A DNA stretch of 64,000 bases from Ecdyonurus torrentis (Eukaryota; Arthropoda; Insecta; Ephemeroptera; Heptageniidae), in contig OX439127.1 in NCBI GenBank assembly GCA_949318235.1, positions 13,163,355 through 13,227,354 of the forward strand. The letters are read 5' to 3'. The notes under the pieces are model-generated. The model searched no databases. It had not been told where the DNA came from and worked only from the letters and a program-made list of their open reading frames with translations. Made by a program: the position numbers and the translations under genes. Positions 496-46,245 of this stretch are shown in pieces (position 1 is the first letter of the stretch; the number at the start of each line of letters is the position of its first letter).

Positions 496-3400
496 CTCTC
501 ACATCTACAGGCACATTACACATCTTCCTCACAGTGGGTTCATCTCCTAGTCTAGCCATCCTTGTATAATCATCTGTAAGCAAATACATATTGAAAATTA
601 AAACAAATGCCTAAACATTACGTGTGCACTTTATTATTATTATTTATTTATTTATTTTAAGGCCATTGACTTATAAAAAGATATGGCAGTACACCAGTAG
701 ATAGATTAGAGAAAATAAATACGATAGTTAACTGGTAGCTGGCAGGGACACCTTATGTGTGCAGTGTGAGAGAAAATGCTCTAATTAATAGGAATAGGTG
801 GTACATACCCTCATTAGAAATAATTTTCTCTCTCGTAAGATGTCCCAGCCAGCTTAAGATGCACTATATTTTATTGTCCCTTTTTTCTGTTGTTTGTGTT
901 TTGCTATCATAAATTTTTATTAGTCTAGTAACACAAATTCGATTTATCTTTAACGAATGTGTCTGTATTGGCAAACAAATGATTCAAATAGTTATCGCCA
1001 ACTGGACCTAATTTTATGCACGGTGATACTTTGAACCAAGAGAACTACTATGGGGTATTGCAATGCCAAATGTTGACTTATGTGGGTTTGAAATCCAAGG
1101 CACATACGACTGAAAGTAAATTTCAACATAATACACTTTTTAATTATACCACATTGCCTATAGCAATGATAGCAACAATCAAAATTGGGAGATATTGGAC
1201 CTCTCCCCCTCCCCTAAATAATTCATAAAAGCTTGATTGTTGTACTTATTAATTAACATGACAACATACAGTAAGTGATCAAAAATATGTAGTTTCTTTA
1301 AGGATGGATCAACTTTTTTAAATTTCAAACTAGAGTATTCTGGCATTTATTTAAAAAAACATTTTTTTAATTACAAATTGTAATTATGTAGTCTATAACA
1401 GTTGAAAGCTTAAAAACGTAATCAGTAGATGCTCACCAATATAATGACAGTAATTAAGTTTTGTTTTTTCAAAGAGATATATTACAATAACCAACAATTA
1501 AGCTTCGGTCATTATACTGAAACATAAATATGCCAACACAAAAGTTGCCTTCCCTATTAACAGTTTCCAATTATTCCACCACAAATTGTCATGTACATAT
1601 TTAAATCTAAATGTCATGTCATTACCACCACCATGTAGTCTGTCAGATTAAAGAATACCACGAGTGTAATGATAAATGTGTATGTTTGTTATGTGGTGGC
1701 TTCTGTACTAGGTACCACACTTTATTGTCCATCTCGGACCCTATCATTAAGTCATTATGCAAAACTGTAGACTTGTAGAATGCAATGTATCTATGATGTT
1801 TATGTGTCTTGGTGTTTAAAGCGATACTTAACCCTAAAAATAAGCAATTTTTATTCTTCTCTAAAATAATTCAATAGAAATCAGTCGTTTATTTTACTTT
1901 TCTAGCCCACGAGATAAGCGAGCCCCGCTAGTGTAAAGAGGAAATCTCTGACGTCAGAGATTTCCTTTACTGTGTGAGTAAAAAATCTGTACACCTTTTC
2001 AGGTAAGCTTAGTAGGTACAGCAAGGGGTACAATTTTTTTACTCTCACAGTAGAGGGGCGTGTACTCTATATCGTTACCCTCGCGGGGCTCGCTTATCCC
2101 GCGGACTAGAAAAGTCAAATAAACGACTGATTACTATTGAATTGTTTTAGAAAAGAACAAAAAATACTCATTTTTAGGGTTTAGTATTGCTTTAATAAAT
2201 TAATAATACATAAAATCTAAATTTTCTTTGTTTTGATTCATATTGTACAACCAATAATATGCGTATTAGGAAAAAACCATCGCGGTTAATATTAATAAGT
2301 TTAAAAAAATATTTAGAAAATAGTTGGTAGAGATTAGAGCACGTTGAATTGAAAATTAATAAAACGCGAAAATTCTCTAATTTAACCCATATATTCCCAT
2401 AATTATTTTGAATGAAATTTTTGGTCATATTGATATCTCAAGCTATTTTGGGGTTGGTGAATCCAAAAATGTCACCCAAAATTTTTTTCGACGCACGGTA
2501 TGCAAGCACTATGATGTTGCGAAAACGCATCACTGGGCTGAATGTGGTACATATTAGGAATATCTTTTATAATGACAAAGTTAAGTAATGAAGGCTTTTT
2601 TGATGTCACTTCATTTGATTTTTGAAAAAGGAACTAAAATAAGGGTGTTTTAGCGTAATTAGGGTGGTTTGGGGGTAGTTTTTCTGAAAATAACTTTTGA
2701 AATTTTTCTGAAAAATTAACAAAAGGAAAATAAAAATGGGAAAAATAATTTAAAATAAACAAAATGAACGAGAACATATACCTGATCTTATGTTATTTAT
2801 GCTAATCATATCGAGTTGCACGTCCTTGTTTGTTTTTGTTTATTTTTTCCCTTTTTATTCTCACATTAAATATTTTTCAGAAATTTTTCAAATGTTTTTT
2901 TCAGAAATACAACCCCCAAACCACCCTTATCCCGCTAAAACCCCCTATAATAGTTTATTTTACAATAATAAAAAAATATAAAATTAAAAAAGCCTATATA
3001 ACTACCCATCGTCAATATAAGATGTAACTCTATTTTGTACCTCATTGAGCCCAGTGATGCGTTTTCGCAACATTGAAGTTGAAGTGCCACCTGCACCCAG
3101 GGTTTGTATCACAGGTTCAACCAAATTTTTATACATGTTTCATAACATCGTGAGATTGTACAATTAATGTTTTAACTACATATCTTGAAAATTATAATTT
3201 ATATTATAATTTAAGTGCGTTAACCTAGGAGTAAGAGATTTTGCACAAAAAGGTCGCTTTGGTTTTTGCCTGATTTGATTAGCCTTATAATTAGGCTATG
3301 GCCTCAAATTTTTTTTATGCACAACTAAGATAATAAACTTTATTGTGTAGGGTTGACAAATCATTAAAATCTAAATTGCAGTTTGTAAAAAATTAAAAAT

Positions 3401-4437
3401 TTTAAATTTTAAAATGTTGCGAAAACGCAACTATAGTATTATATGGGTTAAATAGTAAATTGGGACTAGGGATCAAATATTCTAGCTTGAGCTAGTTAAA
3501 AAGTAGACGTTAAAGGGATGGAGGTATAGTGTCAAAGTGAGGAAGTGAGGGAGGACACATATTGCTTGCTGGCTGCCTGTCTTACACCCCTCTTAGACAC
3601 GATTTTATATTACAGTGTGAGGATGAGAGGTTTTAAACAGCAAGCCGAGTTTGCGCGCGCGATTTTAACCAATCAGCGCGTGCAGCTGCGGGGGCATCGC
3701 GTATAAAAACGCGACTGCCACTTGCTTCCTCAGCTCAGTCAGTTAGCAGATGTGGTGTGAGCCATCTCTAGCTGTACAGAGCTCTCTGCCGAGCCTTACT
3801 GATGAGTCCTAGGTAAAGGACGAAACCGGTCTAAGGCAAAGAGTAAGTCTGATGCTGTTTTATAATGTTGTGTCTTTGACGTAGTGTGAGAACGTGAGAT
3901 GCTAGGCACATCGTATTTTATTTTGACACTATACCTCCATCCCTTTAACGTCTACTTTTTAACTAGCTCAAGCTAGAATATTTGATCCCTAGTCCCAATT
4001 TACTATTTAGTTTAGAGAATTTTCGCGTTTTATTAATTTTCAATTCAACGTGCTCTAATCTCTACCAACTATTTTCTAAATATTTTTTTAAACTTATTAA
4101 TTGTACAACCAATACAACAATGATGGTTCAAACAATTCATTAATATTATATTGAGAGTTTGTAATTTAACGCCTATTTTACACGGGTAGTTTTAATGAAA
4201 GGGTTTAGCTTTCGTGTTACACCGTGTTATATAAGCAGTAAACTGACATTGAAAAGGAATTCCCGGTCGAGCCGAATTCCTTTTCAATGTCAGTTTACTG
4301 CTTATATAACACGGTGTAACACGAAAGCTAAACCCTTTCAATATTATATTATTTAGTGTAAAGCAAGTCTCAGGGAATAACATTTTCTTTCACTATAGCT
4401 ACTGGACAAGTAGTTCACAATAGGCCTATCATTAAAA

Positions 4438-4517
<80 letters not shown>

Positions 4518-6531
4518 CCTGGCTTAGATTTGGAGTCTTTGTTTAAATAAGGTAAAAATTGAAGAACGCGCCTCTACCAACTTTCTTTTTCCTCACTGCT
4601 ACATGGGGAGAATATAGCAATGCTCTATCCTTTTTATAATCAGTAGTCCAACTACCTTCACCTCAGGTGTAACTTTGGCAAATATATAGTAACTTTGTCA
4701 CTTTTGCCTGAGCAATAAAAAATTATAATCTACTGCACAATTAATTGATTTTTCATCCTACTTTTAGCATAGCAAAATAAAATGTTATGTCTCCCACAAA
4801 TTTATGTGTTTGTGGTTTTTAAAAAGGTAGGGAGTGCACTGAGAGTGAGAGAGTACAAGATAAATGCATACCAGATGTTGGGGATGCACACTCCATGCAG
4901 CATCCAGTCTAGGGTCACAAGTGCGCAAGGGCTAAATTCAAAGCTTAATACTACAAAAAAAAAAAAAAAAAATTATCACCGCCCGATTTGCCTTTGTTTC
5001 TAAGTTACACAATATTTTATATATGCTGGGTGGCAAAAGTTTTGAATGAAGAAAGTCTGCTTTATTCCTAATCACATCATCAAAAATATTCTTTTGCCAT
5101 TTTTGCTGTCATAGATTTGAACTCGGTACGCATGATAAGTACAAAATATATAATAAAATGTTTTAGGTTGAATTCACCTTTAGAAATTTGATCCCTATTC
5201 CCAATAATCTATAAACTACAGAATCTGCATGTTCTATTATTTCTCAATTTAACGCATTCTACATCACTACTATTTTCTTTTATGCTATATTTATTATTAT
5301 TATTATTCTAAACATTTATATATTAAATTTATGTTAGTTTAAATTAACAATAAACTAAACCAATTACCATTGGAATGAGGACTTTCTCCATGTTCACTGC
5401 CTGCAGCCAAGGGTACAGTACTAATATCCAATCGCTTTGCATATGCACCTGAAAAATAATTACAATAAGTAAATAAAAGCTGGGCACCAATAATTATTTA
5501 TAATATTGTGTTTAAATTTCAAACATGCACTTTAACTTCAACTTGTTAAAAGTACTTTGAGTGTTCAATGAGTTATGTTTTCTGAAATTAAATAAACTGA
5601 AAATGCAAATTGTTGTGTTTTTACATTCCTAAATTCATTCATTAAATTGTTACAAGCACAAGATTTGATTGCAGCTTGTTGTATAAAACTATATTTTTGA
5701 CCTCAGCCCATATTTTGTTTAAAACATAATAGTTACAGTAAAGGATGTTATTGAAAAACACATAGATAGATTAGGAAAAGTTGGGGAATGGGAGCTAATA
5801 ATGAGCTTAGACTGACAGGGATGTTGTGGTGTAAAGAAAATAAATTGTAGCCCAGGGCAATAATAAATATTAATAATAATAAGAAGCGTATGTACACTAT
5901 GTGGCTTGTAAAAAGTAAATGGAAATGCTGACACTGCAATGAAGTAGTTGGAATGCAATTGTAATTTCAAAAGCATTTCTCAGCCTTCTTGTAGCATTCG
6001 TCTGTGCAACAACTAAAATATGCATGCATTAAGGTATTTCTATAGATAGGTAATCCAAAGAGAATATCGTTATTCAATTTTCTGTTGCCTTTCAATTTAT
6101 TTTATCCTGGAAGTTATATTTTGTTGCCCATTTGATCAATGTAATTTTGACCCGCAATACACGTCTCCAGCTGACCAGTACTTTTCAGCGGGAATCCTCT
6201 CTGGATTACATGAGTTATCTACTTACATTAGCATGCATCTTTGGCCAGCTGTCTCAAGAACACCTTCTCTCTCTCTCAATGTAAAATTCATACCAATACA
6301 ATATATCGATCTCTTTGCATCAAGATGAAGCTTCTACACTTTTCAAATTTCCAAAGAATGAATGATCTACACTTTACAAAGTCACAGCTACCTGGAGCTT
6401 CTGCTACATAAAACAGGTGTGAATTCGCCAGTTAGCCTCAAATTTGTAAAGTGTAGATCGTTCATCTTCATCTTGATGTGAGAAATTTGATATTAAAAAC
6501 GGTGCAAGATCGTGAGTGCACAACTCAAGGA

Positions 6532-7803: not shown

Positions 7804-8194
7804 CTTTTCATCCACTTTTATTCTTTGTACAGATAATTTAACCAGATCCAATGTCTCCCATCAAGTTAACCTAAAACAAAAGATTAAAAACCATCCATGA
7901 ATTTTGATTAAAAAAAAATGTCAAAGCAATGAGTAGTGTATTGTATTCATTCTTAGAAAGCTAAGAATTAGAGAGAAAGAGAGAGAGAGAGAGCTGGGGT
8001 AATAGGGACCACCAGATACAGTGAGACACTTAGCCTCATTCAAAGTTATTTTGCACAGGGTTTCGACTATTTTGCCCAACCCCAAAAAAAAAACAGTGTG
8101 TTTTTTCAAAAAAAAAAAAAAAAACACCTTGAAAAAACCCACGAAAAAAAAATACTTTTTAAAAAATGACTAAAAGCAAAGAAATATAATATAT

Positions 8195-8735
8195 AGGAAA
8201 AAACCATCGCGGTTGGTATTAATTACGTTTAAAAAAATAATTAGAAAATAGTTGGTAGAGATTAGAGCACGTTGAATTGAAAATTAATAAAACGCGAAAA
8301 TTCTCTAATTCAAATAGTAAATTGGGACTAGGGATGCAAATCATTATAGCTTGTGCTAAATAAAAATAGACGTTAAAAGGGATGAGGGGTATAGTGTCAA
8401 TGTAAAATACGATATACCTAACATCTCACGTTCTCACACTACATCAAAGGCACAACATTATAAAACAGTATCAGACTTACTCTTGGCCTTACTAAGTAAG
8501 TCTGATACTGTTTTATAATGTTGTGCCTTTGATGTGTGCCTTTGATGTAGTGTGAGAACGTGAGAACGTTCTCACACTACATCAAAGGCACAACATTATA
8601 AAACAGTATCAGACTTACTCTTTGCCTTACTAAGTAAGTCTGATACTGTTTTATAATGTTGTGCCTTTGATGTAGTGTGAGAACGTGAGATGTTAGGTAT
8701 ATCGTATTTTACATTGACACTATACCCCTCATGTG
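8195..8735. mobile_element. Second copy of the hammerhead element, rearranged into a zig-zag of inverted segments
   Basis: 8195-8400 matches the left arm of the 2.3-4.1 kb element without the TTAA insertion. It is followed by four alternating copies of a segment of about 60-100 bp (CAGACTTACTC ... ACATCTCACGTTCTCACAC): minus about 8390-8491, plus about 8493-8567, minus about 8568-8629, plus about 8631-8735. The ribozyme core itself is absent, but GCCTTACTAAG, the two stem I strands abutted, marks both turn-points (8486-8496 and 8624-8634). The right outer arm is missing. Confidence 0.7.

Positions 8736-25936: not shown

Positions 25937-46245
<20,309 letters not shown>

Follow-up and report, generated by a model that had tools for sequence, protein, structure and literature searches.

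What kind of element carries a complete hammerhead ribozyme between long inverted arms without a reverse transcriptase of its own, and how does it move? The question is raised by a locus in a 64,000-nt stretch of the genome of Ecdyonurus torrentis (on contig OX439127.1; the whole stretch is referred to as the window), the genes of which are insect-like (a match to the 7tm_7 chemoreceptor model, and a beta-tubulin recognised by eye). The answer to which our analyses lead is that the locus is very probably a copy of a young, non-coding hammerhead retroelement with a unit of about 896 nt, which depends on a Penelope-like element (PLE) in the same genome and the RNA of which is predicted to cleave itself.

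The first-pass annotation of the window had described a complete hammerhead with three stems, a loopless ACC/GGU stem III and a predicted cut between positions 3831 and 3832, and all of this was found again. On the plus strand, positions 3793-3837 hold the conserved core of a type I hammerhead, open at stem I, with a stem I of 6 bp, a stem II of 5 bp and a palindromic, loopless ACC/GGU stem III. A script requiring the core and stems I, II and III of at least 6, 4 and 3 bp, respectively, matched this single place in the 64-kb window and nothing in 100 dinucleotide shuffles. The covariance search suggested as a check gave a match over the whole length of Rfam model RF00163 (Hammerhead_1, positions 1-45 of 45) with 30.0 bits (E = 1.8e-5 for 501 nt, 0.0023 for 64 kb); as this is below the gathering score of 34, the default Rfam scan of the window returned no matches. 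The loose pattern CTGANGA...GAAA matched four times in the window, as expected by chance, and the minimum-energy fold of 3770-3860 is a structure other than the hammerhead and not clearly better than those of shuffled sequences (z = -1.58, 12/200 shuffles). The 503-Mb assembly that contains the window has 1,023 exact copies (514 + 509) of the 32-nt hammerhead core, against 0 + 0 of the reversed control. Upstream of the hammerhead we could read by eye the CCAAT/TATA/initiator arrangement noted earlier (CCAAT at 3669-3673, TATAAAA at 3702-3708 and TCAGTCAGT at 3735-3743), which constitutes a putative promoter.

The inverted arms, first placed at 2270-4105, are real, while the bounds of the element had to be revised to 2257-4099, between 15-bp target duplications, and the left arm proved to be split by a separate insertion. 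The features of the window that belong to the element or its relatives are as follows (the A and B ends are defined further below):

2242..2256, no strand: left target-site duplication, ATTGTACAACCAATA
2257..2385, minus strand: minus-oriented cDNA block, outer part, its tailed 3' end facing outward (A end; tail 2257-2290)
2386..3447, no strand: separate foldback insertion CCCATAT...ATATGGG, outside the element proper (TTAA duplicated at 2382-2385 and 3448-3451)
3452..3536, minus strand: inner part of the minus-oriented block, with the head-to-head junction at about 3536/3537
3537..4099, plus strand: plus-oriented cDNA block with promoter-like part, hammerhead and right arm, ending in a tailless B end
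3669..3743, plus strand: CCAAT, TATAAAA and initiator-like sequence, by eye
3793..3837, plus strand: type I hammerhead ribozyme, predicted cut between 3831 and 3832 (Rfam, full-structure script and genome core copies)
4100..4114, no strand: right target-site duplication, ATTGTACAACCAATA
5181..5278, plus strand: decayed relative of the right arm, 73%
8194..8726, no strand: second copy of the family (window copy 2), without the TTAA insertion; minus block joins plus block at the predicted cut, hairpin doubled
40890..41084, plus strand: decayed relative (68%) of the sequence that follows the cut

The TTAA-flanked insertion in the left arm is 1,062 bp long and is missing from window copy 2 and from the relatives first fetched; we take it to be piggyBac-like, judging by its TTAA target-site duplication, and it carries GTTGCGAAAACGCA repeats. 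The right end of window copy 2 is neither A nor B, and a target duplication was looked for there and not found. Its stretch 8440-8688 consists of two near-identical hairpins, each centred on a predicted cut site, and looks like a duplicated cut-site junction. Two further repeats were seen in the window, namely a 70-bp inverted repeat (99%, 11-bp spacer) adjoining the element at 4193-4343, and a stretch of 207 bp at 38569-38775 which recurs at 6025-6231 with 99% identity.

For the genome-wide comparison 33 loci were fetched, representing 37 of the 40 listed best matches to the hammerhead stretch, and because they were chosen in this way they are biased towards young copies with an intact hammerhead. 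The search for further copies joining the same arms to the ribozyme was successful, as arm and ribozyme recur as one contiguous unit in these loci, which rules out that the ribozyme had merely inserted between unrelated arms. One unit from locus L012 (896 nt, GC 39%) was used as reference for mapping, and the units of the other loci measure 886-907 nt. Counted from the cut, the unit comprises the arm and 3' region (to about 280), the tail (to about 320), an internal part (318-607), the promoter-like part (TATA at 766, initiator-like site at 799) and the hammerhead, which extends to 895. Its longest stop-to-stop frame has 80 codons, in agreement with the earlier statement that the element lacks a reverse-transcriptase frame. 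Units also follow each other directly, with 226 exact tandem joints in the genome. Among the first 100 listed places of the core, which all lie on contig C1, neighbours no more than 2.5 kb away are divergent in 22 cases, convergent in none, and on the same strand at 886-904 bp in 12, and the neighbours around the first 100 listed of the 226 joints are divergent in 16 cases and convergent in none; runs on one strand reach three hammerheads or three joints among the listed places. On contig C4 (G000:C4 38438352-38559216) four identical element matches follow each other on one strand at intervals of about 40 kb, a pattern suggestive of tandem segmental duplication.

The usual insertion consists of two blocks placed head to head, their 3' ends both pointing outward (25 two-block insertions), and these outer ends are of two types: A ends, which finish in ...GATGGTTTTTTCCTAATACGC (unit positions 310-321) and bear a tail of about 40 nt, and B ends, which finish in ...TTTTTTTAAACTTATT (254-288) and are tailless. 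Judged by aligned positions, one A and one B end are combined in 21/25 two-block insertions, there is one odd end in the other 4/25, and the combinations A/A and B/B do not occur among the 25. The odd-ended insertions are L041, L042 and window copy 2, in which an A end is paired with an internal end, and L020b, in which a B end is paired with a 13-nt A stub (by eye); in L041 (1470-2032) and L042 (1246-2444) one end lies inside the unit, at 105 and 210, respectively. The ends of 12 single-block insertions are likewise A or B (by eye). A target duplication was found for 29/37 insertions and measures 11-17 bp in 24 of the 29, the other five being 8, 18, 20, 22 and 39 bp long, some of them within simple repeats; that of L041 overlaps element-like letters, as if local homology had been used in priming. 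Blocks meet with an overlap of 0-4 nt or with short extra sequence (a mismatch close to the anchor makes the measured gap too large), the 61 blocks range from 38 to 1,151 nt, and the arms within one insertion are often very unequal. Loci L001-L008, which overlap L009-L014, were excluded from the counts, and decayed or fragmentary pieces were left out (L020 4026-4257, L044 69-373, and parts of L016, L026, L038, L039, L041, L042, L045 and L048).

This is the layout of Penelope elements, which according to the accessible text of PMC3846280 and PMC11167929 have direct and inverted, head-to-head pseudo-LTRs with one tail of about 30-40 nt on one of them, a TATA/initiator-like sequence in the repeat, A+T-rich targets and short target duplications; the element differs from them in being without an ORF. 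The distinct element class that had been considered possible is therefore a reading that is not needed. A reverse-transcriptase frame met in locus L025 was used as query against the genome and gave 101 scored matches among 792 candidates, many of them 99-100% identical, with frames of up to 1,027 codons and often arranged as head-to-head pairs. One of these loci, L049, is a palindrome of 7,023 bp (99.8%) with two intact 1,027-codon frames. Its protein scores 25.6 bits against RVT_1, below the cut-off of 29.6, its C-terminus aligns weakly (E = 8e-4) with a GIY-YIG frame of another PLE in the window, and a PDB search returned nothing meaningful; the assignment of L049 as a putative PLE is based on domain order, typical motifs and layout, and rests partly on sub-threshold or weak matches. 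On this assignment, the reverse transcriptase plus GIY-YIG frame of an autonomous PLE is absent from the hammerhead unit and present in L049. The other PLE in the window, at 36283-38565, is a head-to-head palindrome of about 2.3 kb. Its two GIY-YIG frames score 17.8 bits, below the cut-off of 22.6, and it has a tail of about 34 nt at its left 3' end only (by eye). Directly after the stop of both frames (36596-36610, minus; 38268-38282, plus) it has CTGATGAAGAGAGGC...GCCCTCGAAAACG, which resembles a hammerhead core but for one additional A and has no Rfam match.

Several features connect the L049 lineage with the hammerhead element. The PLE tail, CCTAACCGCGATGGTTTTTTCCTTAAATTG, is present on exactly one side in 9/9 cases, i.e. 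L049 and eight pairs picked from the listing, one tail with an extra T having been missed by the regular expression. At the A site, the element and the PLE have 22 nt in common exactly (CTAACCGCGATGGTTTTTTCCT; at most 15 nt in 50 shuffles), within a 61-nt stretch of 80% identity (E = 3.6e-10), and this shared motif makes the L049 lineage the likely mobiliser of the element. As both the insertion ends and the layout match those of a Penelope element in the same genome, the hammerhead element has probably been copied by that retrotransposon. The autonomous PLEs L049 and L066 gave no match to the hammerhead regular expression, and L049 had no Rfam hammerhead either. The window copy represents this PLE-dependent, retrozyme-like element in truncated and interrupted form.

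We then compared arms and units with regard to the template used. Over about 330 nt, the arms in nine head-to-head insertions showed 8 differences in total, versus a mean of 4.61 for a pair taken from different insertions (n = 1,157; one unit, L023-4201, with an identity of 0.88, was dropped), and 0/20,000 random draws were as low, although arm identity could instead reflect gene conversion. At C1:7610967-7614247, the sole multi-unit insertion sequenced (as five 456-nt pieces), five units, lying in both orientations, do not differ over the compared stretch of about 330 nt and have in common two substitutions and a deletion of 1 nt, none of which is present in 45 other units. Unit length has a standard deviation of 1.96 within insertions versus 7.72 overall (seven insertions with at least two spacings; 1/20,000 shuffles as homogeneous), with C8:10819691 as the exception (900 versus 907/907). 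The equal unit lengths and matching arms point to one template per insertion. As to its form, 46/61 blocks run through the hammerhead junction, 9/61 exceed one unit and 32/61 end upstream of the promoter-like part, and there is no pile-up of 5' ends at the cut (2/61 blocks within 5 nt, in a sample biased to intact hammerheads). Blocks which cross the junction, exceed a unit or pass the promoter suggest that most templates were a circle or a tandem RNA, and not a cleaved linear unit or a single-unit transcript, while the uniform units within an insertion favour a circle made by the ribozyme; judged from these sequences, rolling-circle copying of such a circle is likely.

These observations can be assembled into a possible mechanism. 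Tandem units would be transcribed from a Pol II promoter, the hammerhead, about 95 nt downstream of the initiator, would cut the RNA to unit lengths, and a host ligase may circularise these. The PLE protein would then make cuts 11-17 bp apart in the two strands of a target rich in A+T. Both target ends would serve as primers for reverse transcription of the element RNA, with one start at site A, which leaves the tail, and the other at site B, about 40 nt upstream. Each cDNA would travel between part of a turn and about three turns round its template, and end joining would link the two cDNA ends head to head. The combination of one A and one B end per insertion agrees with a target-primed start from either end of the cut target, and the accessible text of PMC11167929 describes a PLE protein that cuts and extends both target strands and whose reverse transcription begins at two neighbouring sites within the RNA, matching the genomic tail. 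In a more specific and tentative reading, to which we give a little less than an even chance, both ends of the cut target would have primed on one and the same circle made by the hammerhead, from two fixed starts about 40 nt apart, with up to about three turns and a head-to-head join, and each insertion would be the record of such a reaction.

Much of this could also be obtained if the PLE copied linear RNA, transcribed in tandem from a homogeneous donor array and left uncleaved, with a hammerhead that only trims 5' ends or is dispensable, and we consider this quite possible while leaning against it. Such a transcript would yield blocks that cross the cut junction, as most do, and tandem donors exist in the genome. 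The hammerhead-less PLE L066 likewise shows cDNA of more than one unit, so that tandem cDNA does not need a ribozyme, and the accessible text of PMC11167929 reports that the PLE hammerhead is dispensable for insertion in vitro, its mutants being without effect and no reads being found at its cut. It is the pattern within and between insertions that speaks against a linear template: unit length is uniform within an insertion and differs between insertions, and the five units of one insertion have private variants in common, whereas a circle does not need a uniform donor for each insertion. The exact conservation of the core in so many copies points in the same direction, although the youth of the copies may account for that.

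Two target-primed starts also have to be weighed against snap-back, a mechanism suggested for the Penelope elements of Adineta in which one cDNA or an antisense template is copied by self-priming, and for which the accessible text of PMC3846280 argues. While the near-identical arms, the palindromic junctions and the near-equal 5' ends of some insertions (L014, L026) would follow naturally from it, snap-back predicts equal outer ends, which none of the 25 two-block insertions has, 21 being A plus B; as the PLE is also one-tailed in all nine cases examined and the arms of one insertion are often very unequal in length, we consider this origin improbable. Further information came from the genome-wide search with RF00163, which gave 32 matches, 27 of them above the cut-off, among 74 scored candidates. 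The seven loci fetched from it represent a second hammerhead family with different letters in stems I and III but with pairing kept, and with a stem III that is again palindromic and loopless. Between the two families 2/6 pairs of stem I are changed on both sides and none is broken, a comparison of 5 sequences only in which 19/500 shuffles were as high. The four two-block loci of this family (L031-L034) all have a one-sided tail (4/4, by eye), which is shortened in L034 and accompanied by an additional internal tandem tail in L033. That a single tail is the rule in both hammerhead families as well as in the PLE speaks for two separate target-primed starts rather than for snap-back.

The first description, as a foldback-type element, is in keeping with the window copy, where long inverted arms enclose the ribozyme and a target duplication is present, but a foldback or TIR DNA transposon with a captured ribozyme is most improbable, since such elements have identical inverted termini and a constant duplication length, whereas the outer ends of this one are unequal (tail versus no tail), its duplications vary, its blocks are of widely different length, direct tandem units are joined at 226 places and its end motif is that of a PLE.

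Among elements already described, the metazoan non-LTR retrozymes come closest. In the accessible text of PMC7229834 these have a type I hammerhead, non-coding direct tandem units, a GC content below 50% and target duplications of more than 4 bp, with PLEs as suspected mobilisers, all of which agrees with the element. They have repeats of 150-450 bp and circles allowed to range from 150 to more than 1000 nt, versus about 896 nt for this unit, and the word 'inverted' is absent from that text, whereas the insertions described above are one-tailed and head to head and share their start motif with an intact PLE whose locus is named. As the unit (886-907) exceeds the stated 150-450 bp, we term the element a retrozyme-like variant, which in its mode of action appears to correspond to a metazoan retrozyme mobilised by a PLE, with a putative circular RNA intermediate. 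The plant LTR retrozymes resemble it in being non-autonomous, in carrying a hammerhead and in having circular RNA as proposed intermediate, and differ in their LTRs, type III hammerheads and 4-bp target duplications (PMC7229834, accessible text). The hammerheads of PLEs are minimal variants without helix III in the accessible text of PMC7761336, as opposed to the 3-bp stem III found in this family. The literature search, with most subscription papers outside its reach, returned no report of this element or of a motif linking a PLE with a retrozyme.

In the accessible text of PMC7229834 and PMC7761336, both the enzyme that mobilises animal retrozymes and the use of circular RNA as template are left as hypotheses. 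In Ecdyonurus torrentis, a young, high-copy hammerhead element and an intact PLE share end motif and layout in one assembled genome, which makes both the mobiliser and the circular template directly testable. If true, the two-ended copying of a circle would represent genomic evidence for rolling-circle reverse transcription of ribozyme-made circles by PLEs, and would explain how Penelope elements come to have inverted repeats with a single tail.
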